Shown here piece after piece: positions 8,445 to 40,046 of a stretch of DNA of 44,607 nt. Numbering within the stretch: the first letter of the stretch is position 1; the number at the start of each line of letters is the position of its first letter. The notes beneath the pieces were generated by a model. The model saw nothing but the letters and a program-made list of their open reading frames with translations, was not told the origin of the DNA and ran no database searches. This stretch comes from Verrucomicrobiota bacterium (lineage in GTDB: Bacteria > Verrucomicrobiota > Verrucomicrobiia > Opitutales > Opitutaceae): assembly GCA_030605125.1 (NCBI GenBank), contig JAUWBD010000012.1:1-44607 (forward strand), written 5' to 3'. The position numbers and the translations under genes were made by a program.

Positions 8445-8912
8445 CTAATCCAGCAGCCCGATCCGACGCAGACGCGCGAGGAGGCGGCGCTCGTAGCGTT
8501 TGGTCAGCTCGTGCTCCCAAAGGCGGAGGACGCGCCAGCCGCGGGCGCGGAGCTGGCGGGTGACGAGGCGGTCGCGGGCCTGGTTGTTCGCGATCTTGTC
8601 GCGCCAAAACTTCGCGTTCTGCCGGGGCTGGGTTGCGTGGATCGGGCAGCCGTGCCAAAAGCAGCCGTCCACGAAGACAGCGAATTTATGGACGGGAAAA
8701 ACGAAGTCGGGGCGGACTTGGAAGCGTCGCTGTCCGGCTTGGACCTCCAAGGCCGAAACCTTCCTCCCTCGAAGCGTTTTCCCCCGACGCCAGCCGGTGA
8801 TGCCGAGCGCACGAAAGACGACGACGAGCCGCAGCTCGGTCGAGGCGTTGCCCTTGCTCCGCACTTTGGCCATGAGCGCCGAACGTTGGGCCTTGGTGAG
8901 GATGTCGGGCAT
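8445..8912 (-). CDS. vsr: Very short patch repair endonuclease (Vsr)
   Basis: A 155-residue Vsr endonuclease, which nicks 5' of the T in T:G mismatches arising by deamination of 5-methylcytosine at the cognate methylase site. The catalytic Asp lies in RPDF (D69), followed by the zinc/intercalation region FVDGCFWHGCP (80-90) and the C-terminal block ARDRLVTRQLRARGWRVLRLWEHEL. A GTG at 8921 is possible, but ATG 8912 fits the family start (MPDILTKAQRSALMAKVRSKG). It is the last gene of the EcoRII-type set on the minus strand. Vsr of E. coli acts at Dcm/EcoRII-type CCWGG sites, matching the neighbouring methylase and nuclease. Confidence 0.95.
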   Translation of the reverse strand: MPDILTKAQRSALMAKVRSKGNASTELRLVVVFRALGITGWRRGKTLRGRKVSALEVQAGQRRFQVRPDFVFPVHKFAVFVDGCFWHGCPIHATQPRQNAKFWRDKIANNQARDRLVTRQLRARGWRVLRLWEHELTKRYERRLLARLRRIGLLD

Positions 8913-8977
8913 GGCGGGCACGTGGGGCTGGCCAGGGGGAGGCCGAAAGACGCAAGAACTCCGTCACCCGGAATGCG

Positions 8978-10150
8978 TCAACTGCTGCCGGGCGTCTGCA
9001 GGCGATGGAGCTTGGCCAAGAAATCGTCGACGCTGAGCAACCGGATGCCGGTGCGGAGATCGTAGCCCTTATGAAACGGCTTCGGAACCACCAAGGTGAC
9101 GTTGGCCTCGCGCATCTCCAGCAATTGGTTGGCCGAAATGCCTTCTTGAAGAGTAACGAGATGCTTCTCGGGGATGCGTTTGCTCTCGTTGAGAATCTGA
9201 CGCCAGCGATCTTTGCAGGTGGTTTTGAGACCAGCCACAACGAGGCGTGAAACGGGGAAAGCCGGGTTTTCGTAGGCCGCCTTACCGGGGATGAGCAGGT
9301 CCGGCTTCACGTTGCCGTCGATTCTCGGTTGTCGATCAAAGGGGAGGCCGTCGCCGCGCAGTAGTTCCTCCACATGGTTTTCAAAGCTGTGGCCAGCGCG
9401 GGATTTTCTCCGGTTCATCAACGTCGCCGCCACGTCCATGAATGCATCGAGGTCCAAAAACGGACGCTGGATCGAGGGAAGCGCGAGCTTTGTCTCCAGG
9501 CGTCTGAAGAGCTGGTATTCCGCCTCGATCCAGCGGAGGAGCTTCTCGTCGGCGGACGTGGGTATGGAGGAGCCGGCGCAGTGGTTGACGGCGTCACGGG
9601 CCCGTGCGGCCATCCATTTACCGTCCGGAAACTCATCCAAAGTGGTGACGGTTTTCTCGATCACGCGTTCGATGCAGCCTCTGGTTCCGTCATGTTTCGC
9701 CGCGCCGGGCGCATACACGCCCCAGCCGCCAAGGGTTTCGACGCCGAGCGCGGTTTTCAGTAGCTCGATGTCGGCATCCGTTTCGAGGACATGGGCGCCA
9801 AAGCGCGTGAGTGAAAAAGGAACGAGCACCAGCAGGCTGCCCACATAGCGTTCGTCCATCCACGGAAAGCCGCGTCCAAAGCAGGTGAGCCGGTATTCGC
9901 TGCGAGTTTTTTCACCATACCACGTCACCACAGAATCGGTTGCGAAACCGTGTGGCCATTGAACCCGCACGGATGACTTGTCCTTGCGCCCCTTCAGCGG
10001 CGGGTGAGCGGTGAAGAGGGGCCAAGCATGCTTCGGGAGGTGGAAGCCGCATTGGTGTGAATCTGTCGCGCCAACGTCATTTCGCGTGATGAACTTGCAG
10101 AGGGCACGTCCCGCCGCGAGCGCGTCGGAGATGGCGGATTCGACAGACAT
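8978..10150 (-). CDS. EcoRII-type restriction endonuclease
   Basis: A 390-residue type IIE restriction enzyme, close to the length of EcoRII (about 400). The N-terminal effector-binding domain starts with CKFITRNDVGATDSHQCGF (18-36). The C-terminal PD-(D/E)xK-like domain has GHSFENHVEELL (about 253-264), VKPDLLIPG (281-289) and GLKTTCKDRWRQIL (307-320), the EcoRII-C signature. The family needs two sites and cuts before CCWGG; that specificity here is inferred from family membership. ATG 10150 is used because the family-like region starts right after it; the upstream extension has low similarity to anything. It lies 22 nt downstream of the methylase. No clear ribosome binding site. Confidence 0.93.
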   Translation of the reverse strand: MSVESAISDALAAGRALCKFITRNDVGATDSHQCGFHLPKHAWPLFTAHPPLKGRKDKSSVRVQWPHGFATDSVVTWYGEKTRSEYRLTCFGRGFPWMDERYVGSLLVLVPFSLTRFGAHVLETDADIELLKTALGVETLGGWGVYAPGAAKHDGTRGCIERVIEKTVTTLDEFPDGKWMAARARDAVNHCAGSSIPTSADEKLLRWIEAEYQLFRRLETKLALPSIQRPFLDLDAFMDVAATLMNRRKSRAGHSFENHVEELLRGDGLPFDRQPRIDGNVKPDLLIPGKAAYENPAFPVSRLVVAGLKTTCKDRWRQILNESKRIPEKHLVTLQEGISANQLLEMREANVTLVVPKPFHKGYDLRTGIRLLSVDDFLAKLHRLQTPGSS

Positions 10151-10172
10151 GGGGGGTGCTGGCGCCGGCGGC

Positions 10173-11264
10173 TCAAACGGGTTTGCCGCGCTTTCGTTTC
10201 CCCGAAGGCGGCTTGGTGGCGAAGTAACGGGCTTGAGGCTCTTCGAGAACAAGGTCGGGCGGTCGCCCTAAAGGCGCCCGTAGGGACTCGATCACCGCGT
10301 GCGCGAGGCGTTCTACGACCGGGACGACGACGGAGTTGCCGAATTGGCGGTAGGCCTGGGTGTCGGAGACGGTGATCTTGAAATCGTCGGGGTAGCCCAT
10401 GAGCCGCGCGCACTCGCGCGGCGTCAGGCGTCGAGGCGTTTTGCCCGCCCCTTGGGATACAAGAATCTCCGAACCGTCCTTGTAGTAGCGGGCACTGAGT
10501 GTGCGGGTGGTGCTTTGGGCGGTGACGAGACCGAAGCCGAAGCCGTTGCCCGCGGCCTGATGCTTTCTCGCGTAGTCTTGGAGATAGGCCCAGAGCTTGG
10601 GCGTAAGCGTGTATTTTGCCGGCACGTCTTTTTCGAGAATCGACCCGAGGCGCGGGCCTTCGCCTTCGGCGGGGAACTCGGGAAACTCGAAGTAACGGGG
10701 TTCGCGAAAGCCGATGAGAAAGATGCGCTCGCGGTGCTGCGGGACCACGCCTTGCGCATCGATGATCTTGTAGTGGACCTGATAGCCGAGCTCGTGGGCG
10801 AGCGTGTCGTAGATGACGCGGAAGGTGCGGCCCTTGTCGTGGCTCTTCAGGTTCTTGACGTTCTCCAGCACGAACGCGGCTGGACGGTGGTGCTCCAGGA
10901 TGTCGCGGATGGCGAAGAACAGGTTGCCTTGCCGCTCGTCGTCGAAGCCGTGCTTTCGGCCCAAGCTCTTCTTCTTCGAAACGCCAGCAATGCTGAAAGG
11001 CTGGCAGGGGAAGCCTCCGCAGAGGATGTCGTGGGCTGGGATTTGCTCGACCGGCAGGGCGTTGATGTCGCCGTGCGGCGATTCGCCGAAATTGGCGGCG
11101 TAGGTCTTTTGTGAATACTTGTCCCAGTCGCTCGAGAACAGGCAGCGGGCGCCCGCTCGCTCGAAGGCGATGCGGAAGCCGCCGATGCCGCAGAACAGGT
11201 CGATGAAGCGGAGCGGCCGGTCGGAAGTGACCGCGCGGGGCGCCGCGGGAAGCGCGGCGTGCAT
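10173..11264 (-). CDS. DNA (cytosine-5-)-methyltransferase, Dcm/EcoRII-like
   Basis: A 363-residue C5-cytosine methylase using S-adenosylmethionine. In order: motif I ([19 protein letters not shown], about residues 20-38), motif IV with the catalytic cysteine (GGFPCQPFS, Cys near 87), motif VI (VLENVKNL, near 133-140), motif VIII ([11 protein letters not shown]), a short target-recognition region, and motif X ([12 protein letters not shown]). With Vsr and the EcoRII-type nuclease downstream it is probably a CCWGG methylase that modifies the inner cytosine. ATG 11264 overlaps the regulator stop as TGATG; a TTG just before it is less likely. The tail is basic (Lys/Arg/Pro-rich). Confidence 0.95.
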
Positions 11265-11488
11265 CAATCGATCTCCTCGCAGAGGTCGGCCAGACGGACG
11301 CGGAGCGCCTTCGCGATGCGAACGGCGCTGATGATAGTGGGGTTTCGCTCACCGCGCTCGATGCCGCCCACGTAGGTGCGGTCGAGTTCCGCAATCGCGG
11401 CGAGGTTCTCTTGGGAGATGCGGTAGGCTTCGCGCTTACGTCGGACGTTCTGGCCGAACTTCTTGAGGATAGGTTCTCGGTCGGACAT
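11264..11488 (-). CDS. XRE-type regulator of the restriction-modification operon (C-protein-like)
   Basis: A 74-residue single-domain HTH_XRE protein. The helix-turn-helix spans about residues 20-50 ([27 protein letters not shown]), with the [14 protein letters not shown] continuation typical of small restriction-modification controllers. Its stop overlaps the methylase start (TGATG), placing it as first gene of the operon regulator, methylase, nuclease, vsr. Controller proteins delay nuclease expression or repress the methylase; which applies here is not visible. A short dyad 10-28 nt upstream of its ATG could be its binding site. Confidence 0.88.
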
Positions 11489-11497
11489 CCGCCGAGA

Positions 11498-11516
11498 ATA
11501 TCGAAACGCCGATTAT
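11498..11516. promoter_or_regulatory. Candidate operator between XRE regulator and HNH gene
   Basis: In the 89-nt space between the divergent regulator and HNH genes, ATCG (11500-11503) and CGAT (11510-11513) form a short dyad inside an AT-richer ATATCGAAACGCCGATTAT. A second, wider pair, CAGACG (11517-11522) and CGTCTG (11545-11550), lies beside it. Either could be bound by the small XRE regulator. Weak evidence, based on position and symmetry only. Confidence 0.3.
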
Positions 11517-11577
11517 CAGACGACGGACTATGAGTATCATCTGGCGTCTGGAGCGGCCCTTTGCAGCCTGGGCAGAC

Positions 11578-12387
11578 ATGGCGAAATCACCTTCCGTCAG
11601 ATGGACGCGTGAACATCTGCTGATGGCGTTGAGCCTTTATCCGCAGTTGAACTTCGGGCGTCTGCATTCCCGTAATCCGCACATTAAAGGAGTCGCCGAA
11701 AAGATGGGGCGAAGCGCGGGGAGCCTGGCCTTGAAGCTGACCAACTTTGCTTCGCTCGATCCGCTGCTGAAACAGAAAGGGATGGCGCACACGTCGGCGC
11801 AAGACCGCGCCCTATGGGCTGAGTTTGAGACGCGTCGCGGAGACGTTCGCGCCGAAGGCGAGACGCTGCTTCACGCCCTGTTCGGCCTGCGCGAGGACCA
11901 GGAGCTGGATTTTCTCGATCCGAAGGGAATTCGAGTCGTTGCCTCCGAGATGGAGATCGAGGCGGAGGAGACGGCGGAGAAAACCGATGACGAACTCCGG
12001 AGGTTGCGACGCGGCTATTGGTTCTTTCGTCAGGCCATTCTCAACATCTACGACGTGCAATGTTGCATCACCGGCATCGCCATGCCGCGTCTGCTGATTG
12101 CGAGCCATATTCGGCCAGCCCGGAAGTTCCCGGAGGAGCGCTTCAACCTGAACAACGGGCTTTGCCTCTCGGGGCTGCATTCTCCCGCGTTCGCGGGGGG
12201 ACTGATCACCTTGGACGAGAAATACCGCTTGGTGCTCAGCCCGCGGCTGAAGAAGCAGTTTTCCAAGGAAGCGCTGAAAACGAATTTCGAGCCCTATGAG
12301 GGGCAGCCGATCCGTTTGCCGAACGTTTTGGCGGAGCCTTCCCAAGAAAGCTTAGCCTACCATCGCGAACACGTGTTCACCGCTTAA
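11578..12387 (+). CDS. HNH endonuclease (putative restriction endonuclease, HNH_2 type)
   Basis: About 269 residues. The N-terminal half has the conserved arrangement of this family: WTREHLLMALSLYPQLNFGRLHSRNP, then VAEKMGRSAGSLALKLTNFASLDP, a helical module probably binding DNA. The C-terminal HNH_2 nuclease begins at CCITGIAMPRLLIASHIRPA (ASH at about residue 174) and continues NLNNGLCLSGLH, carrying the H-N-H residues. ATG 11578 is chosen because related proteins start with MAKS.TRE; ATG 11530 would add 16 unrelated residues. It is divergent from the restriction-modification operon and its stop overlaps that of the next minus gene by 2-3 nt. Probably an accessory restriction nuclease; its target is unknown. 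Confidence 0.85.
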   Translation: MAKSPSVRWTREHLLMALSLYPQLNFGRLHSRNPHIKGVAEKMGRSAGSLALKLTNFASLDPLLKQKGMAHTSAQDRALWAEFETRRGDVRAEGETLLHALFGLREDQELDFLDPKGIRVVASEMEIEAEETAEKTDDELRRLRRGYWFFRQAILNIYDVQCCITGIAMPRLLIASHIRPARKFPEERFNLNNGLCLSGLHSPAFAGGLITLDEKYRLVLSPRLKKQFSKEALKTNFEPYEGQPIRLPNVLAEPSQESLAYHREHVFTA

Positions 12388-13330
12388 ATCAGCCCATGAA
12401 GTTTGAGGTAATCGTCGATCGACTTGATTACCCCGCCGTTAGGGTCGCGGGCGAGGTGCCGGACAATAACAGCCCGAAAGAGTTCTTCGCGTGGCAACGG
12501 CTTCAATAGCATGCCAACACGCTCCCTAGCTTGTTCTTCTCCGAAGACCTTCAAGTGTGTTTCGGTGCCGTGTGCGTGGCTTGAGTGAACGACGATGGCA
12601 TCGAGCTCTCGATGTGCTTTTAAAAAGGCTTGAGCCGTCGCTTCCAGAACGGCGTCGGCGGGAAAGAACGTTGAGACGCATCCGATGTTAAGTGTTCCAT
12701 TTCCTGAGCGTGAGAATTTGCCAGTAAGCGATTCGAACCTGCTTTGATGACGACGACCTTTATGGGCGTTGTCCAATATGCCGGTCCATTCACCGCGCCA
12801 GTTTTTGACTTCGATAACGAGCGAAGTGCTGCGGGAGATCAGGCTCCAATCAGCATCTAGTCCGGTGTCCGAATTGAGGACTGGTCCCGACACGGCTTGT
12901 GCATCCTGCCAACGGTCGAGCCAGCAAAGTTCTTCTACTGTATCCAAATGTTTCTGGGGATCCCTTAGGCCATCGAGAAGATGCTTAGGCAAACGGCCAA
13001 GGAGTAGACGCCCCGTTTCGAGCGCGCGGCCAAGCTTGAGCAGGTCTCCATGACTTATGCCGGGTGCATTCACGGCGAACGCATCCTGCGCTCCAAAACC
13101 GAAGTCGGCAGAGTCTAAATTGTAACGCGGATCGCTTAACTCGTAAGCCGGATAAGGTGCTCCGAACGGTGTTTTCCACCCGATCAGCTTCAGGGGATAT
13201 CGCGTAGTAGCTACCCAATCTTGTATAGCCTCCGCGCGTGTTCCTGCTTCCGCTTGAGTCAAAAGTGCCCTGCCTTTGCCGTCTGTGGCAGACAGCAGGG
13301 CTAGCCTAAGCTGGTCAGGGCTTGGGGGCG

Positions 13331-13334
<4 letters not shown>
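12384..13334 (-). CDS. Uncharacterised protein with PD-(D/E)xK nuclease-like core
   Basis: A 316-residue protein I cannot place in a named family. Around residues 160-180 it has DADWSL, about a dozen residues, then [13 protein letters not shown]. The D162 / E175-x-K177 spacing is the signature of PD-(D/E)xK nuclease cores, so a DNA-cleaving role is plausible but inferred. The apparent start is TTG at 13334, overlapping the metH stop as TTGA, which suggests translational coupling. No internal Met offers a better start. Base composition is visibly less GC-rich than metH, consistent with acquisition. Its 3' end overlaps the HNH gene stop by 3 nt. Membership in the defence region fits the nuclease reading. 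Confidence 0.7.
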
Positions 13335-30813: not shown

Positions 30814-30890
30814 CGGGGTGTAGCTTAGCCTGGTAGAGCGCCTGGTTTGGGACCAGGAGGTCGTAGGTTCGAATCCTATCGCCCCGACCA
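30814..30890 (+). tRNA. tRNA-Pro (UGG)
   Basis: A 77-nt cloverleaf with CCA encoded. The acceptor arm CGGGGTG pairs with CGCCCCG, the anticodon stem CCTGG/CCAGG encloses TTTGGGA (anticodon TGG at 30848-30850), and the T-arm loop is GTTCGAATC. A TTGACT at 30764-30769 about 45 nt upstream is a plausible -35 element, but no clear -10 element could be chosen. Confidence 0.97.
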
Positions 30891-33080: not shown

Positions 33081-33281
33081 GAGGGGGGGCTTCTCCGCGT
33101 CGAGGCATACCGGCGCGGGAAGGACCGCTCAACCCAAGCCGACACGGGCGATGGCGGGTAAAAGCCCGGCTGTTGCGGCGCATGCCCGAAACTGGTGGTG
33201 GGGGGCGCGGAGGCGTGGTTCCGAGGCCGCGCCCGACGTTTTAGGATTTGGCGGGGCGGCGCTTCGGGTTTCGCTCCGTCC

Positions 33282-34430
33282 GTGCCCTATTTCGACCACA
33301 ACTCCACCACGCCGCTCGCCGACTGCGCCCGCGAGGCCTGGCTCCGCGTGCAGACGGAGAACTGGCACAACCCCTCCAGCCCCACGCGCGCCGGGGCGCG
33401 GGCGCGCATCCGGCTCGATACGTATCACGAGGCGCTCGCGATCCTGCTCGGCGGAAAGCCGGAGGAATACGTCTTCAACTCGGGCGCGACCGAGGGCGCG
33501 CACGCGGTGCTGGCCTACTGGGCGGCGAGGCTGCCGGCCGGCGCGCGCATCGCGGTGGCGCGCACGGAGCACGCGGCGGTGCTGGCGGCGGCGGGCAAGT
33601 TTTTCGAGGGGCGGATCGACTGGCTGCCGCACGACGCAGCCGGGGTGGTGTCGCCCGAGTCGGTGCGCGCGGCGCTCGCGGCCGGCGCGGCCGGCGTGGT
33701 GCTGATGGCGGCGAACAACGAGACGGGCGTGCTCCAGCCCTGGCCGGAGATCGCGGGTCTATGCCGCGAGGCGGGCGGCGGCGCGGGCGTGCCTTTCCTG
33801 TGCGATGTCACGCAATGGCTCGGCAAGCTGCCGGGCGCGGGATTGGGCGACTGTGGCGCGTGGTTGATCGCGAGCGGGCACAAGTTTGGCGCGCCGAAGG
33901 GCGTGGGATTTGTGAAGCTGCCGGCGGGCGCGGCCGAGCCGGATTTCGTGGCGCAGGGTGGCGGGGCGCAGGAAAAGGGGCACCGAGCCGGCACGGAGGA
34001 TGTGGCGGGGGCGGCGGCGCTCTGCGCGGCGCTCGGCGAATGCGAGCGCGTGCACGTGATCTGGGAATGGCAGCGCGAGGAGTGGCGAAAGGCCTTCGAG
34101 CGCGAGCTGGTGGCGGCGCTCCCCGGCACACGTATCATTGGCATGGATATGGGCGTGGATCGGCTCTGGAACACGGTGTTCGCGGTGATGCCGCATGGGG
34201 AGGCGACGCGCTGGATCGCCAAGCTGGACAAGCGGGACGTGCAAGTCTCGAGCGGCGCGGCCTGCACGGTGGGCAAGGGCGCGGCCTCGCACGTGCTGGC
34301 CGCCCTCGACGTGCCGGCCGAGGAGGCGCGCCGCGCGCTGCGCTTCAGCGCAGGGTGGGGGACGACCGAGGCCGACTGGGCGGCGCTGATCGCCGCGCTG
34401 CGCGAGGTGGCGGGGGAGATTGGAAGCTAA
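33282..34430 (+). CDS. Cysteine desulfurase family protein (NifS/IscS-like)
   Basis: A 382-residue PLP enzyme of the class V aminotransferase fold that takes sulfur from cysteine. The GTG start at 33282 is chosen because the family begins with YFDHNSTTPL right after it. The PLP lysine is in SGHKFGAPKG (K201), preceded by LCDVTQWLGKLP (the D/Q pair). The persulfide cysteine is in SSGAACTVG (C328). RAGTEDVAGAAAL matches the RxGTxN/D motif. The active-site loop has SGAACT where IscS has SGSACT, a minor change. It ends exactly where the convergent helicase gene ends (34430/34431). Confidence 0.9.
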   Translation: MPYFDHNSTTPLADCAREAWLRVQTENWHNPSSPTRAGARARIRLDTYHEALAILLGGKPEEYVFNSGATEGAHAVLAYWAARLPAGARIAVARTEHAAVLAAAGKFFEGRIDWLPHDAAGVVSPESVRAALAAGAAGVVLMAANNETGVLQPWPEIAGLCREAGGGAGVPFLCDVTQWLGKLPGAGLGDCGAWLIASGHKFGAPKGVGFVKLPAGAAEPDFVAQGGGAQEKGHRAGTEDVAGAAALCAALGECERVHVIWEWQREEWRKAFERELVAALPGTRIIGMDMGVDRLWNTVFAVMPHGEATRWIAKLDKRDVQVSSGAACTVGKGAASHVLAALDVPAEEARRALRFSAGWGTTEADWAALIAALREVAGEIGS

Positions 34431-37400
34431 TCAGCCCGAGCCGGAAAGAATTCGCCAAATGTTTTTGTATTCGCTACCGGTAAGTTGTGCATCGACCGGC
34501 CTTGCTCGGTTCCAAACCTCCACATCAGCGGCGGCTAGAAATGAACGAGCTGATTGCAGTGTCGGTTGCGTGCCTGGGGTGGTGCGAAAACTGATGCCGA
34601 TGGTTTCGGCAATTGACCGCGGAACACCGTTCATGCGCATCAGGACGGCTTCTTCGCTCCTTACCCCGTGATAGATCATCGCTGGGAGTAGGTTAATCTG
34701 TCGCTTTTGTGCGTCAGATAAACGGTCGAAATCCATACCCGAAAGTCTGCTCAAAGCTGAAAGGCCCCACGTGCCGTTATTGGTTAGGTTTCGGTAGATC
34801 GCCTTGCATGCCTCTGTGATGGCGCGGGTAGCGTCCTGATCGGCTCGGAAGTAAGTTTTAGCGATTTCTTGGATCGTCTTTCCGTTTACCCAGTCGCGTG
34901 TGATACTAGCGAGGTGCTCATGCTCGATCCCACTCGGCGTGATCTCATTTAGTTGTCGCGCCAGCTGCGGGATTCGAAGCATCACGCCGTAAAAATCGGC
35001 CATGCTGCCAGCTTCACCGAAAAGGCGGTCAGCCGAAAAATCAGCCGGAGTGAGCTTACGTTCAAGCTGCCCGATGCCAATCATGGCCTGTGTGACTCCT
35101 TCGAACGAGAAGCCTGTGCTATCTGCTTGCGCGACACATCCGGGATTTTGGGCGATCTTATTGGCGTAGAGCTTAGTCGCGTCGACTAGCTTACGCGCAC
35201 GGAGCTGACCTTCGGGCGTCTCTTGAAGCACGCGATATCCGTATGTGTTGCGAAGCGAATCTTCTACCGTGGAGATCACACGGTCTAGGTCGCGTATTTC
35301 ATTTACGAGATGATTAACGTAGCAGCGAAAATCTTCCCACTGCTCCTGGTGCAGCACGCCGAGGAGAGCGGCTCCGTCATTCGCGTGATCTAGCTCGGCC
35401 ACGATCGTTACGAGCCGTGAGGCGAGGTCGCCGGCTGCATCCTTAACATACCTGCGAACGGCGTCCGGCCGATTGGCGTCGGCTATGCCAACCACGCCCA
35501 CACTCTCTTGGTTCATGCGGCCAGCGCGGCCTGCGAGATTCCAAAACTCACGAGCACCCATCGGTCGCCGATAGGGGTAACTGCTCTGTCGGATCTCAGT
35601 AGTCGCCAAGAAAATCGAAGACACCGGAAAGTTGATTCCCTGTGCCAAAGTTGTCGTGGCGCAGAGCACCTTGATTTCGCCTTCCTCAGTCAACCACTCG
35701 ACCAACGAACGCACCTCATCTGAGAGGCCGGCGTGATGAACGCCTACGCCGCGCCCAAGCATGTCAATTAGCTCAAACTGTGGGCTGATCTCGGCGGCCA
35801 GGAAGCGTTGCACCAGTTGCAGGCGCTCTGGGACCACGTCCATGATCGGCCGCGCTTTGGCTACTTCACGCGCCATGGCCCACGCCGAGGAAGGCGAGTC
35901 GCCCACCGCAATGCTGGTGCCGCGCGTGGCGAACACCGAAGCCATTGCCGCGGCTTGAAGATTCATCCCGCTTTGCGAGCCGTCGGCCGTTACGAATCTC
36001 GACCGGGCCAACTGCGGCAGAGGTTTGGCACCGTTCACCCGATGGATGCCGCGAAGTTGAATCGTTTTGCGCGTGGTGAGCAGGGTTTCGAACTCCATGC
36101 GCCATCCCGCGCGGACGGTGTCGTCGCGTTGGGCGCGGAACATGCCGACAACTTGCTCATTAGGCCGCCAAGGGGAGGTGCCAAAGCTGATCGAACGACC
36201 AGCGTGCGGGCCGTCGGCGAGCCAACGGGCAAGCGCGTCCACCCGCTCCACGAAGGGCATGAGCAGGAGAAAATTCACGCCCGTGCATTCCTGCTTGATG
36301 GTGGCGAGCAGCAGTTCGATACGCAGGCCGCGCGTATCGTTTTCGAGGTTATGCGCCTCGTCCATAACGACGAGCGCGAGAGGACGTGTGATCTTCTTGT
36401 TCCGGATGACCAGTTGAAGCTTTTCCGGAGTGGCAACCAAGATGTCGAAGGTCCGATCTTCCTTGGTTGCCGTGGAGGCGAGCAGCTCCTGCTCGATGGC
36501 ATCGATTTCCAAGGCGCCTGTAAGCTGTTCGACGCGCACATCGATAGGGCCAAAATCACGACGCAAGCGGCGCGTGATCTGGTTACTCAATGCTTTCGTT
36601 GGCACCACGTAGGCCACCCATCCGCCGCGATCCGCAAATTGGTTGAGCGCCTGGAGCATTCGGAACTGGGCTAGCAGGGTTTTTCCTCCTGATGTGGGAA
36701 GGTCGATGACCACGGCCGTCGCTGCCGCGTCGAGCAAACCCTGCTCTTGCAGCGCGGCGCGCTGGGGTGGCAGCAGCTCGAACATGGATTGATGCTGAGT
36801 GACCGAGCCCACGAAACGGGTGACGCGCGAGTTAATCGCGTGCGCCACCCACCAAAGCGAGTTGGCTACCATCTGCCGGGAAGTGGCGTGGAGCCAGCGC
36901 ATGAGCATTTCAAGCGTGGCGTCCCCCGCCAACATGCCGGCTTCAGTCGCGGCCTCGAAGTGCTTGTCGAGAAGGGCGTGAATTCCACGCGGCTCACCTT
37001 GAAGCATGTAGCGCGCGAGGAGTTCGGTGGCGCGAGCCCAGTTGTAAAGGGCCACGAGGCGCAGGGCCATCGCACGGTCCTGGCTGTTGGACCCGCTGTT
37101 GATAGAGCTGCGTTCAAAGTCACGTTGGTCTTCGCGCAAACCCGCGATGGTTTCCCGAATGCGGTCGAGGTCGTCCCATCCGTTTTTGCGCAGCAAGCGG
37201 ACCCAGCAGTCAAATAACCGATATAAAAGTCGTCGATCCCAAGCCTGCTCGGCTACGCTCGGTGTTTCGATGGCGGCGGGAATTTCCACGAACCAACGGC
37301 GGATGTCGGACCAGCGGTCGCCACAATAAGCTAGGCTGGCCAAATGGAGCACGTGAAATAGCCGGTTCGTCGTGGCTAGCGGCACAGGTATGAGTCTGCG

Positions 37401-37703
37401 AAACGCGAAGGCGCGCCACGCTCCGGCGGCGCACTGTCTGCGCAGGACGTCCTGCTCCGGTGATTGGCCGATGAACGCAGGCAGACCCTCGATGGCTGCC
37501 ATTTCGTATGCCAGCGCCACGCGCTGCAAAAGGTCTTCCTCCGCCGTGGAAACTTGGGCCGCAAGGTTCAGTTGGTGCCCCACTGTCTTTCGCACGAGAC
37601 ATGCGACGGACAGCTCCATGGCGCGCTGGCGGTCTGCTTGGGGAATTGCCGCAACCGCCCAGTGCGTTTCGAGCAGGTCCAAAGTGTCTTGTTTGAAAAT
37701 CAC
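34431..37703 (-). CDS. Ski2-like DEAD/DEAH helicase of a Hachiman-like defence module (HamB-like)
   Basis: A 1090-residue superfamily 2 helicase. After a helical N-terminal region of about 320 residues come motif I (LPTSGGKTLLA, about 332-342), YVVPTKALSNQITRRL, motif II (VVMDEAHNLE, DEAH at about 447), motif V (LCATTTLAQGINFPVSSIF) and motif VI (NLAGRAGRMNQ, about 722), then a long helical C-terminal region. The GTG at 37703 overlaps the partner stop (GTGA) and has GGGAGGTG just upstream, so it is chosen over the longer frame. Base composition is less GC-rich than both flanks, a sign of transfer. The pairing with an upstream D...ExK nuclease resembles Hachiman (HamA-HamB) or AbpAB. The N-terminal extension may mean a distinct subtype. 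Confidence 0.75.
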   Translation of the reverse strand: MIFKQDTLDLLETHWAVAAIPQADRQRAMELSVACLVRKTVGHQLNLAAQVSTAEEDLLQRVALAYEMAAIEGLPAFIGQSPEQDVLRRQCAAGAWRAFAFRRLIPVPLATTNRLFHVLHLASLAYCGDRWSDIRRWFVEIPAAIETPSVAEQAWDRRLLYRLFDCWVRLLRKNGWDDLDRIRETIAGLREDQRDFERSSINSGSNSQDRAMALRLVALYNWARATELLARYMLQGEPRGIHALLDKHFEAATEAGMLAGDATLEMLMRWLHATSRQMVANSLWWVAHAINSRVTRFVGSVTQHQSMFELLPPQRAALQEQGLLDAAATAVVIDLPTSGGKTLLAQFRMLQALNQFADRGGWVAYVVPTKALSNQITRRLRRDFGPIDVRVEQLTGALEIDAIEQELLASTATKEDRTFDILVATPEKLQLVIRNKKITRPLALVVMDEAHNLENDTRGLRIELLLATIKQECTGVNFLLLMPFVERVDALARWLADGPHAGRSISFGTSPWRPNEQVVGMFRAQRDDTVRAGWRMEFETLLTTRKTIQLRGIHRVNGAKPLPQLARSRFVTADGSQSGMNLQAAAMASVFATRGTSIAVGDSPSSAWAMAREVAKARPIMDVVPERLQLVQRFLAAEISPQFELIDMLGRGVGVHHAGLSDEVRSLVEWLTEEGEIKVLCATTTLAQGINFPVSSIFLATTEIRQSSYPYRRPMGAREFWNLAGRAGRMNQESVGVVGIADANRPDAVRRYVKDAAGDLASRLVTIVAELDHANDGAALLGVLHQEQWEDFRCYVNHLVNEIRDLDRVISTVEDSLRNTYGYRVLQETPEGQLRARKLVDATKLYANKIAQNPGCVAQADSTGFSFEGVTQAMIGIGQLERKLTPADFSADRLFGEAGSMADFYGVMLRIPQLARQLNEITPSGIEHEHLASITRDWVNGKTIQEIAKTYFRADQDATRAITEACKAIYRNLTNNGTWGLSALSRLSGMDFDRLSDAQKRQINLLPAMIYHGVRSEEAVLMRMNGVPRSIAETIGISFRTTPGTQPTLQSARSFLAAADVEVWNRARPVDAQLTGSEYKNIWRILSGSG

Positions 37704-38494
37704 GCGGCACCTCCCCGATTTTGAGCTGCGATCACTTGAGCGGCCAACGTGGAGATGCTTCCCGCCGGCAAGTAGAGCGCGACGAGCTCGATCAAGGTTG
37801 CCGCCGGACAATCCACGGCAAGCGCACCGACCCGCGCACGCAGATCGTCCTCATGGGGTGGCACGTCGCGGACCATGAGAGCGAAGAGGCGCACGTCGCA
37901 GATATCCTTCAGGTAGGCCCCCACCGCCGCTTGGTAGCGGCTCCGCCAGGTGGCGGCGGGCGCACGGTGGCCCAAGTAGCGCACGAGGTCATCGCGCACT
38001 TCGCGACGATCGCGCAGGTCCTCCATCTGTTGCTTGAGGCCGTGGCGACCGTAAGACACACTGGGAGGATTCGCGGCGTGAGACGATGTTTTCACCTCGC
38101 CGAAGGCAAAGCGTTCTTGGCCATCGCTGGATTGAAAGCCGACGAGGTCGGCACCGGGCAGGCTCGAGCCGCGCTTGCGCTCGTCGCGCCCGTCGGGCCA
38201 AGGGAAAAAGCAGTCTCGGTTCGCCGTAAGGTAACGTTCCGCCAAGGCCTCGCCGACCTGCCAATCCTCCGGTTCACCTGTGTCGGTGAGCAAGGTCTCC
38301 AAGTTGTCTTTCGCAAACTGTGTGTCCGGGAGGCCATCGAGCAAGTTGCGCAGTTCTCGAGTGCCTGCGTGATCCAAGACCAGCGCAGCAGTGGGGCCGG
38401 CCAGTTCCTCGGCGAGCGCCTGCATATCCACGCCCAATCCCGTGCCCGTGACCGGGATTGTGCCTAGCTGGTAATGCGTGACGCTTGGACGCAT
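37700..38494 (-). CDS. PD-(D/E)xK-type nuclease partner (HamA-like)
   Basis: A 264-residue protein with a compact nuclease core. WQVGEALAERYL (78-89) supplies the helix with E82, then PGADLVGF (113-120, D116), then FAFGEVKTSS (129-138, E133-x-K135). This GE...D...ExK order matches the PD-(D/E)xK fold and the DUF1837/HamA layout, in which the helicase regulates a DNA-cleaving partner. No signal peptide. It is first in the two-gene unit and overlaps the helicase by GTGA. Assignment to Hachiman proper, rather than a sister nuclease-helicase family, rests on gene order and motif spacing only. Confidence 0.7.
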   Translation of the reverse strand: MRPSVTHYQLGTIPVTGTGLGVDMQALAEELAGPTAALVLDHAGTRELRNLLDGLPDTQFAKDNLETLLTDTGEPEDWQVGEALAERYLTANRDCFFPWPDGRDERKRGSSLPGADLVGFQSSDGQERFAFGEVKTSSHAANPPSVSYGRHGLKQQMEDLRDRREVRDDLVRYLGHRAPAATWRSRYQAAVGAYLKDICDVRLFALMVRDVPPHEDDLRARVGALAVDCPAATLIELVALYLPAGSISTLAAQVIAAQNRGGAA

Positions 38495-38612
38495 AACGGG
38501 GGTATGCTAGGGGCTAAAAGTCTGGTCGAGGATAGATAGACGGAAGATGTTGGTGACGGTCGCCGGCGTTCTGGAGCAAATCTTGGTATGGGAAGACGAA
38601 GAATACCGGAAC

Positions 38613-40046
38613 TCAGCGGCGGCCGTCGCGTCGCTGCCAGTGGGCGCCGGGACGGCCTTTTTGGATAAACGGATTCGGGGCGCGGTCCTTGTCGCGTTGC
38701 TGGCCGCCGCTGCCTTTGCCGCCCGTCGTGCCGGGGAGCGGGGCGCGGGGGCTCAGATCGTCGCCACGACGGTGGTCGGCGCGCTGCGGCTGGCCCGAGG
38801 TCGGACGGCCGTCGGGACGGTGACCGTGGTGGCGGGGTTGCGCGCGCGGATCGAAGCGGCCACCGCCCTGCCGCGGGGGACGCGGACCTTGGCCCTGCCC
38901 CGGCGCAGGCACCGGGGCCTTCGCCTTGTAGTCAAAACCCTCCATCGTGAGCTGCGGAATCGTCGCCTTGATGAACTTTTCGATCGCGCGCAGTTCGCCC
39001 GTCTGGTCGGGCGTCACGAGCGTGAAGGCATCACCCTCGGCGGCGGCACGACCCGTGCGGCCGATGCGGTGCACGTAGTCGTCGGGCGTGGCCGGGATGT
39101 CGTAGTTGATGACGTGCGTCACGCCCGCCACGTCGAGGCCGCGCGCGGCGATATCGGTCGCGACCATGACCTCGAGCGTGCCGTTCTTGAAACCTTCGAG
39201 CGCGGCCTTGCGCTGGCCCTGGCTGCGATCGCCGTGGAGGAGCGCGACGGTGTGGCCCTCGGCCTTGAGCTTGCGGGCGATCTTGTCGGCACCGTGCTTG
39301 GTGCGGCTGAAGACGATCACGCTCTTGTAGTCGGTCTTCTTGAGCAACTCGAGCAGGAGGGGGAACTTCAGGTGGTGCGCGACCGGGTAGATGGCGTGGG
39401 TGACGGATTCGTTGACCGAGCGCGTGCGGCCGATGGTGACGTGGGCCGGGTCCTTGAGGGCGAAGCGGGCGATCTCCTGGATCTCGGGCGGAATGGTGGC
39501 GGAGAAGAAGAGCGTCTGGCGCTGCTTGGGGCAGAGGGAGACGATTTTTTTGACGTCCTTGATGAAGCCCATGTCGAGCATGCGGTCCACCTCGTCGAGG
39601 ACGAGGACCTGGAGGTGGTCGAGGCGGAGGACGCGTTCGTTGAGAAAATCGAGCAGGCGGCCGACGGTGGCGGTGACGATGTCGGCGCCGGCGAGGAGGT
39701 CGGCGCGTTGTTTGCCGTAGCCGACGCCGCCGTGGAGGAGGGCGCGCTTGAGGTCGGTGAACTTGCCGAAATCGGCGAAGTTTTCGTCCACCTGGGCGGC
39801 GAGTTCGCGGGTGGGCTCGAGGATGAGGACGCGCGGGCCGGGCTTTTTGTGCGGGCCGAGGCGGTTGAGGATGGGAAGGGCGAAGGCGGCGGTCTTGCCG
39901 GTGCCGGTCTGGGCGGAGGCCACGAGGTCGCGGCCGGTGAGCACGATGGGGATCGCCTGTTCCTGGATGGGCGAGGGCGTGGTGTAGCCTTTGGCGGTGA
40001 CGGCGCGCAGGATGCTGGAGTGGAGACCGAGGGAGTCGAACGACAT
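38613..40046 (-). CDS. DEAD-box RNA helicase, RhlE-like
   Basis: A 477-residue ATP-dependent RNA helicase. Q-motif GYTTPSPIQEQAIP (20-33), motif I AQTGTGKT (45-52), Ia PTRELAAQ, motif II DEVD (151-154) in place of DEAD, motif III SAT (182-184), motif V ATDIAARGLDV and motif VI HRIGRTGR. The C-terminal 110 residues are basic and Gly/Pro/Arg-rich, as in RhlE tails that bind RNA. Presumed roles are ribosome assembly or mRNA turnover. The DEVD variant keeps both acidic residues needed for ATP hydrolysis. Confidence 0.93.
   Translation of the reverse strand: MSFDSLGLHSSILRAVTAKGYTTPSPIQEQAIPIVLTGRDLVASAQTGTGKTAAFALPILNRLGPHKKPGPRVLILEPTRELAAQVDENFADFGKFTDLKRALLHGGVGYGKQRADLLAGADIVTATVGRLLDFLNERVLRLDHLQVLVLDEVDRMLDMGFIKDVKKIVSLCPKQRQTLFFSATIPPEIQEIARFALKDPAHVTIGRTRSVNESVTHAIYPVAHHLKFPLLLELLKKTDYKSVIVFSRTKHGADKIARKLKAEGHTVALLHGDRSQGQRKAALEGFKNGTLEVMVATDIAARGLDVAGVTHVINYDIPATPDDYVHRIGRTGRAAAEGDAFTLVTPDQTGELRAIEKFIKATIPQLTMEGFDYKAKAPVPAPGQGQGPRPPRQGGGRFDPRAQPRHHGHRPDGRPTSGQPQRADHRRGDDLSPRAPLPGTTGGKGSGGQQRDKDRAPNPFIQKGRPGAHWQRRDGRR

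Follow-up and report, generated by a model that had tools for sequence, protein, structure and literature searches.

Does the nuclease-helicase gene pair at positions 34431-38494 of contig JAUWBD010000012.1 of a Verrucomicrobiota bacterium (Opitutaceae, assembly GCA_030605125.1) belong to the Hachiman phage defence systems, and would it act as they do? The window analyzed here is the whole stretch of 44,607 nucleotides, positions 1 to 44,607 of the forward strand. By its profile matches the pair is assigned to the PADLOC phage defence candidate PDC-M23 (PADLOC-DB 2.0; PDLC04527-04532), and the best reading of fold, profile and tree is that PDC-M23 represents a divergent lineage within the Hachiman/AbpAB superfamily of nucleases and helicases. 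PADLOC candidates stem from a 'guilt-by-embedding' approach and most of them are unvalidated (PMC12988326). The new element is the link between PDC-M23 and Hachiman; the locus itself is a typical member of a catalogued, uncharacterized candidate. A literature search delivered no paper naming PDC-M23, with preprints outside its reach, so that an earlier link to Hachiman may exist.

Family assignment and the nuclease PDC-M23A

The pair consists of the following elements.

37700-38494, reverse strand: PDC-M23A (M23A), a HamA-like PD-(D/E)xK nuclease of 264 amino acids (aa) with the residues E82, D116, E133 and K135 (PADLOC profile, AlphaFold2 fold, conserved catalytic residues)
34431-37703, reverse strand: PDC-M23B (M23B), a Ski2/HamB-like superfamily 2 (SF2) helicase of 1090 aa with a GTG start (PADLOC profile, PF00270, structure match)
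37700-37703, reverse strand: GTGA overlap of the nuclease stop (TGA) and the helicase start (GTG), seen in the sequence, with putative translational coupling

The nuclease matches the PADLOC model of PDC-M23A (PDLC04529) with E 3.8e-95 (residues 5-257 to 7-260 of 265) and the helicase that of PDC-M23B (PDLC04531) with E 0 (residues 13-1088 to 4-1059 of 1060), and the two genes are adjacent through the overlap, which is the composition of PDC-M23. Compared with other PDC-M23 members, the pair is alike over the whole length of both proteins and has the same overlap; no difference was found in the proteins. A two-gene unit with this 4-base overlap is present in seven genomes from several phyla, plus further genomes, so the pairing is not a matter of chance. 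L002-L008 share the GTGA-type overlap, and so do several of the annotated pairs of HamAB and AbpAB type.

An AlphaFold2 model of the nuclease (predicted local distance difference test, pLDDT, 72; nine sequences in the alignment) has the HamA fold over its full length. Its top three structural matches are the HamA chains 8vx9_A, 8vxy_A and 8zue_A (Z 15.8, 13.6 and 12.0; residues 1-263), the first of which, from E. coli, aligns over 225 residues with a root mean square deviation of 4.1, whereas the best non-Hachiman chain reaches only Z 5.7. Foldseek ranks the same three chains first (8vx9_A with E 3.3e-5 and probability 1.00). The profile-profile alignment of M23A and HamA spans 183 columns, the active site among them, and has a probability of 93.5 (P 2e-7), compared with 0.2-0.4 for unrelated controls. 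The common core of PD-(D/E)xK nucleases as the sole cause of this likeness was rejected, because the match covers the whole protein and lies 6 to 10 Z units over other such nucleases.

The active-site segments of the window nuclease read QVGEALAERYL / PGADLVGF / FGEVKTSS, those of HamA (PDB 8vx9) GDLGEIFATEW / RGEDVIGI / LKTEAKSR, and the residues of the two proteins correspond in alignment. D116, E133 and K135 are invariant in nine close relatives and in 19 of the 19 aligned M23A members, and E82 is retained in 18 of these 19. An earlier note on this DNA, made from the letters alone, had named D116/E133-x-K135 at exactly these positions; the two open reading frames (ORFs) at 34431-38494, the GTGA overlap and the 1090-residue helicase that it reported also agree with the sequence. 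Two bridging pairs (L043 and L080) encode nucleases that match PDC-M23A (1e-8 to 4e-9) and HamA (5e-4 and 1e-5) alike.

The helicase PDC-M23B and the relation to HamAB and AbpAB

The helicase is organized as follows (residue numbers).

About 1-300: N-terminal helical domain
RecA1: PTSGGKT at 336-342 and DEAH at 448-451
RecA2: GRAGR at 725-729
C-terminal helical region

Besides the DEAD domain (PF00270, E 2.5e-23), HamB models match the helicase at E 2.3e-52 but rank second to PDC-M23B, which scores far higher. The NCBIfam Hel308 models match at 99-145 bits, far under their cut-offs of 887-1216. In the trees the helicase clusters with HamB and AbpB against Hel308, Slh1 and ASCC3 (94-98% bootstrap). 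Two trees suggest strict nesting of M23B inside HamB; the alternative was not rejected (approximately unbiased test, p 0.27), so that nesting is not claimed.

A long N-terminal region of roughly 320 residues had been proposed as a possible distinction from typical HamB. The region is real, with motif I beginning at residue 335, but it does not set the helicase apart: seven annotated long HamBs have motif I at residues 294-334, and only in short HamB-type helicases and AbpB does it lie at 120-165. The top structural match of the helicase model is HamB (Z 16), and only three HamB chains cover the model from residues 4-11 onward, other helicases starting at about 267-290; model confidence is about 77-89 across most of residues 10-290. 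Because of this motif position and this exclusive coverage the N-terminus appears, on the model, to be a likeness to HamB whose sequence has diverged beyond detection. HamB itself binds HamA through its N-terminal helical domain (PMC12278908).

Motif II is DEAH in the window helicase and mostly DEGH in HamB, but DEAH also occurs in one annotated HamB (L096). Motif III (about residues 479-486 of the window helicase) is MPFV or TPFI in PDC-M23B, TPFV or SPF in the bridging helicases and GPFV in AbpB, compared with SAI or SAV in long HamBs and SAT in Hel308. A P-F pattern replaces the SAT-type motif in PDC-M23B, the bridging helicases and AbpB; long HamBs are without it. Motif III of SF2 helicases helps to couple ATP hydrolysis to unwinding. 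As a prediction only, M23B may serve as an ATP-driven sensor rather than as an unwinder.

With Hachiman (HamAB of E. coli ECOR31; PDB 8vx9) the pair shares the full-length HamA fold, the E/D/E-x-K residues, a HamB-like Ski2 helicase with an N-terminal helical domain, the nuclease gene in first place and the 4-base overlap. It differs in the low nuclease identity of about 12%, in motif II (DEAH vs DEGH) and in motif III (MPFV vs SAIL). The Hachiman-like module of the earlier note therefore holds as a likeness, in nuclease fold, in the grouping of the helicase with HamB and AbpB and in gene order and overlap, but the family is PDC-M23A/B.

AbpAB (E. coli K-12 yfjL/yfjK) is likewise a nuclease-helicase pair with a 4-base overlap, and the P-F pattern recurs in motif III of its helicase (LTGPFV in AbpB, LLLMPFV in the window helicase). 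In AbpA an inactive HamA-like domain is joined to an additional N-terminal (Cap4-like) nuclease (PMC12278908), whereas M23A is a single domain of 264 aa whose active site is intact; AbpB, with 729 aa, is short and has no long N-terminal domain. AbpA was rejected as the closest relative of M23A, as no profile match was obtained (hhalign 0.1).

The Rhizobium/Ensifer plasmid pairs (L093 4746-8718, L094 4773-8778, and L102) have helicases that are 28-29% identical to M23B over about 86% of the length, with an N-terminal domain related to that of M23B (hhalign 99.3). Their nucleases have Q-x-K in place of E-x-K and fall outside the M23 clade. From their sequences these pairs qualify as a further intermediate between PDC-M23 and HamAB. 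One of them (L093) adjoins a locus of the cyclic-oligonucleotide-based anti-phage signaling system (CBASS).

Insertion site, distribution and surroundings of relatives

The pair is bordered by the following features; both neighboring genes are outside the system.

33195-34430, forward strand: left neighbor, cysteine-desulfurase-like (iscS-like) class V aminotransferase (PF00266, E 5e-34)
34428-34433: abutting stops of the iscS-like gene (34428-34430, forward) and the helicase (34431-34433, reverse), left edge of the insert (sequence)
38495-38612: spacer of 118 bp from the rhlE stop to the nuclease start (sequence)
38613-40046, reverse strand: right neighbor, RhlE-type DEAD-box RNA helicase, rhlE (PF00270, E 4e-51; PF00271, E 1e-32)

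This placement between cysteine desulfurase, with adjacent stops, and rhlE is as the earlier note had given it. Its 'zero-gap' island applies to the helicase side, where the stops touch, but not to the rhlE side, where the nuclease start and the end of the gene upstream are 118 bp apart. The lower guanine-cytosine (GC) content that it described is also present: GC of the pair is 0.600 compared with a window mean of 0.677, and GC at third codon positions (GC3) is 0.67 and 0.73 in the two genes compared with 0.87-0.95 in eight neighboring genes. No sigma-70-type promoter or terminator pattern was found in the 118-bp spacer, and at the edges of the insert a check for transposon ends, att-like repeats and promoter or terminator patterns gave nothing convincing. 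TCAGC, present both at 34431 and at 38613, was rejected as a target duplication for being too short, and tRNA-associated integration was likewise discarded, the sole transfer RNA (tRNA) gene of the window lying 3.5 kb off at 30814-30890.

In the congener G396 (L047) the orthologues of rhlE and the iscS-like gene are convergent, with stops 11 bp apart and nothing between them, and DNA similarity to the window picks up again exactly at the rhlE stop. In the congener G140 (L057) the two genes enclose a block of 8.4 kb, in which two large ORFs look carbohydrate-active and an AraC-like regulator is also encoded (names from reading the translations). As the gap is empty in G396 and holds a carbohydrate-like block in G140 and the PDC-M23 pair here, it is a site that takes varied cargo across related strains. 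The iscS-like left neighbor was found in 15 of 15 genomes of the genus, whereas PDC-M23B is absent from all 14 other genomes of the genus that were searched with the helicase.

The distribution of the family is sporadic, with PDC-M23A in 8 of 388 sampled genomes of the host phylum and in 2 of 398 of another phylum. The nearest relatives of the pair come from Azonexus and Yanghanlia (66-68% identity for the nuclease, 73-74% for the helicase), whereas the copy in a genome of the same family (G170) is only 37-38% identical. Sporadic distribution, shifted composition and the empty site in a congener lead us to infer that the pair was gained horizontally between the iscS-like gene and rhlE.

Plasmid and phage collections searched with the nuclease gave no match, and the plasmid search with the helicase gave distant relatives only, on 20 plasmids and with less than 60% identity. 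A single contig of a viral collection (L087), at best a putative phage, carries the pair together with a type I restriction-modification (R-M) operon. In genome G384 (L042, 8959-10035) a truncated PDC-M23A is fused to an unrelated tail and the helicase is missing, so loss of the pair does occur. The tail reads like an ADP-ribosylglycohydrolase, and the copy is decayed.

The neighbors of the relatives were surveyed as a count of annotated genes in 17 loci, without a random control. In 4 of the 17 (L004, L006, L038 and L087) the pair is flanked by type I methylase/specificity genes on one side and by the type I restriction gene on the other, and in L087 it directly abuts or overlaps each of these neighbors. 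A type III system is located directly downstream of the pair in L002, and a type IIG enzyme adjoins it in L040. The copy in the window is without such R-M surroundings. Two of the type I operons also contain the PADLOC candidate PDC-S02 (L004 5508-6620, L006 5149-6276).

Mode of action, alternatives and a second low-GC block

In HamAB the helicase restrains the nuclease; when free 3' ends or damage are sensed, ATP is hydrolyzed, the nuclease is released and phage and host DNA are destroyed (PMC12278908). By analogy the PDC-M23 pair likely works like Hachiman, and we consider it probable that it is a horizontally gained, divergent Hachiman-type defence with DNA-triggered nuclease release and abortive infection. 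Carried over from HamAB, the sequence of events would be that nuclease and helicase form a complex in which the N-terminal helical domain of the helicase holds the PD-(D/E)xK nuclease inactive. The helicase would engage free or damaged DNA (free 3' ends), as arises in phage replication, and its ATP-driven movement would free or activate the nuclease. The freed nuclease would then degrade phage and host DNA, so that the infection is aborted.

Several observations weigh against this account. The defence role of PDC-M23 has candidate status only. Searched against Pfam, PADLOC and NCBIfam at E up to 1, the nuclease has no DUF1837/HamA match (PF08878 or PADLOC HamA), so that the profile check suggested in the earlier note fails, and for this reason the pair is not filed as Hachiman. 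A PF08878/DUF1837 search of the M23-carrying genomes also gave no match; the control genomes gave none either, so that absence is not proven by it. The N-terminal domain is unrelated to that of HamB by sequence (hhalign probability 1), therefore the regulatory contact is taken from the model, and the overall quality of the helicase model is low (pLDDT 56). As motif III is altered, DNA unwinding may differ from that of HamB. Finally, the window copy is solitary, with no known defence gene adjacent.

The altered motif III and the diverged N-terminal domain would also suit a pair that acts as a partner of restriction, the helicase moving on phage DNA that is restriction-cut or unmodified and feeding it to the nuclease, so that phage DNA is cleared, the cell is spared and the pair backs up R-M. 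The placement within hsdM/hsdS-hsdR in four relatives and beside type III and type IIG systems in two more favors such a role. The window copy, however, has no adjacent R-M system and therefore has to act unaided, the fold and catalytic residues of the nuclease speak for the mode of action of HamA, and for AbpB, whose motif III is altered in the same way, activation by DNA damage is reported (PMC12278908). We regard this variant as unlikely. Also rather unlikely is a more novel reading, in which PDC-M23 would join HamAB and AbpAB as a third Hachiman branch that has a nuclease-helicase interface of its own and the altered motif III, a mobile add-on of R-M operons that would be triggered by restriction-left ends and act as a cell-killing second line.

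A host nuclease-helicase for DNA repair or end processing, without a part in immunity, would be in line with the repair role of Hel308-type helicases and with the NCBIfam Hel308 matches; yet those matches stay far below the cut-offs, and the sporadic occurrence within the genus and both sampled phyla, the shifted GC and the R-M linkage of relatives make it very improbable. The profile searches did not assign the pair to an unrelated DNA repair system either, the outcome that the earlier note had named as counting against its proposal. The truncated nuclease in G384 is a precedent for a decayed or non-functional insertion, but both window frames are open and of full length with catalytic and helicase motifs intact, and we give decay hardly any credence here.

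Through the Hachiman tie, the PDC-M23 candidate gains a concrete, testable mechanism, and one branch of the Hachiman superfamily is seen to escape searches with the DUF1837 profile. How the family diversified can be approached through the bridging pairs and the motif III pattern in common with AbpB, and the recurrent position within restriction operons prompts the question of whether DNA cut by restriction serves as the trigger. For the host genome the pair is a candidate defence module, solitary and gained horizontally, at a site with different cargo in related strains.

An EcoRII-type R-M block, the second low-GC block of the window (8445-12387), lies 22 kb from the pair.

8445-8921, reverse strand: Vsr
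8978-10252, reverse strand: EcoRII-like nuclease
10173-11267, reverse strand: C5 methyltransferase
11530-12387, forward strand: HNH protein

At the edge of this block an ORF of 316 aa (12384-13334, reverse strand) matches nothing in PADLOC or, at E up to 1e-5, in Pfam; it holds 'VIEVKNWRG', which resembles an E-x-K nuclease motif.

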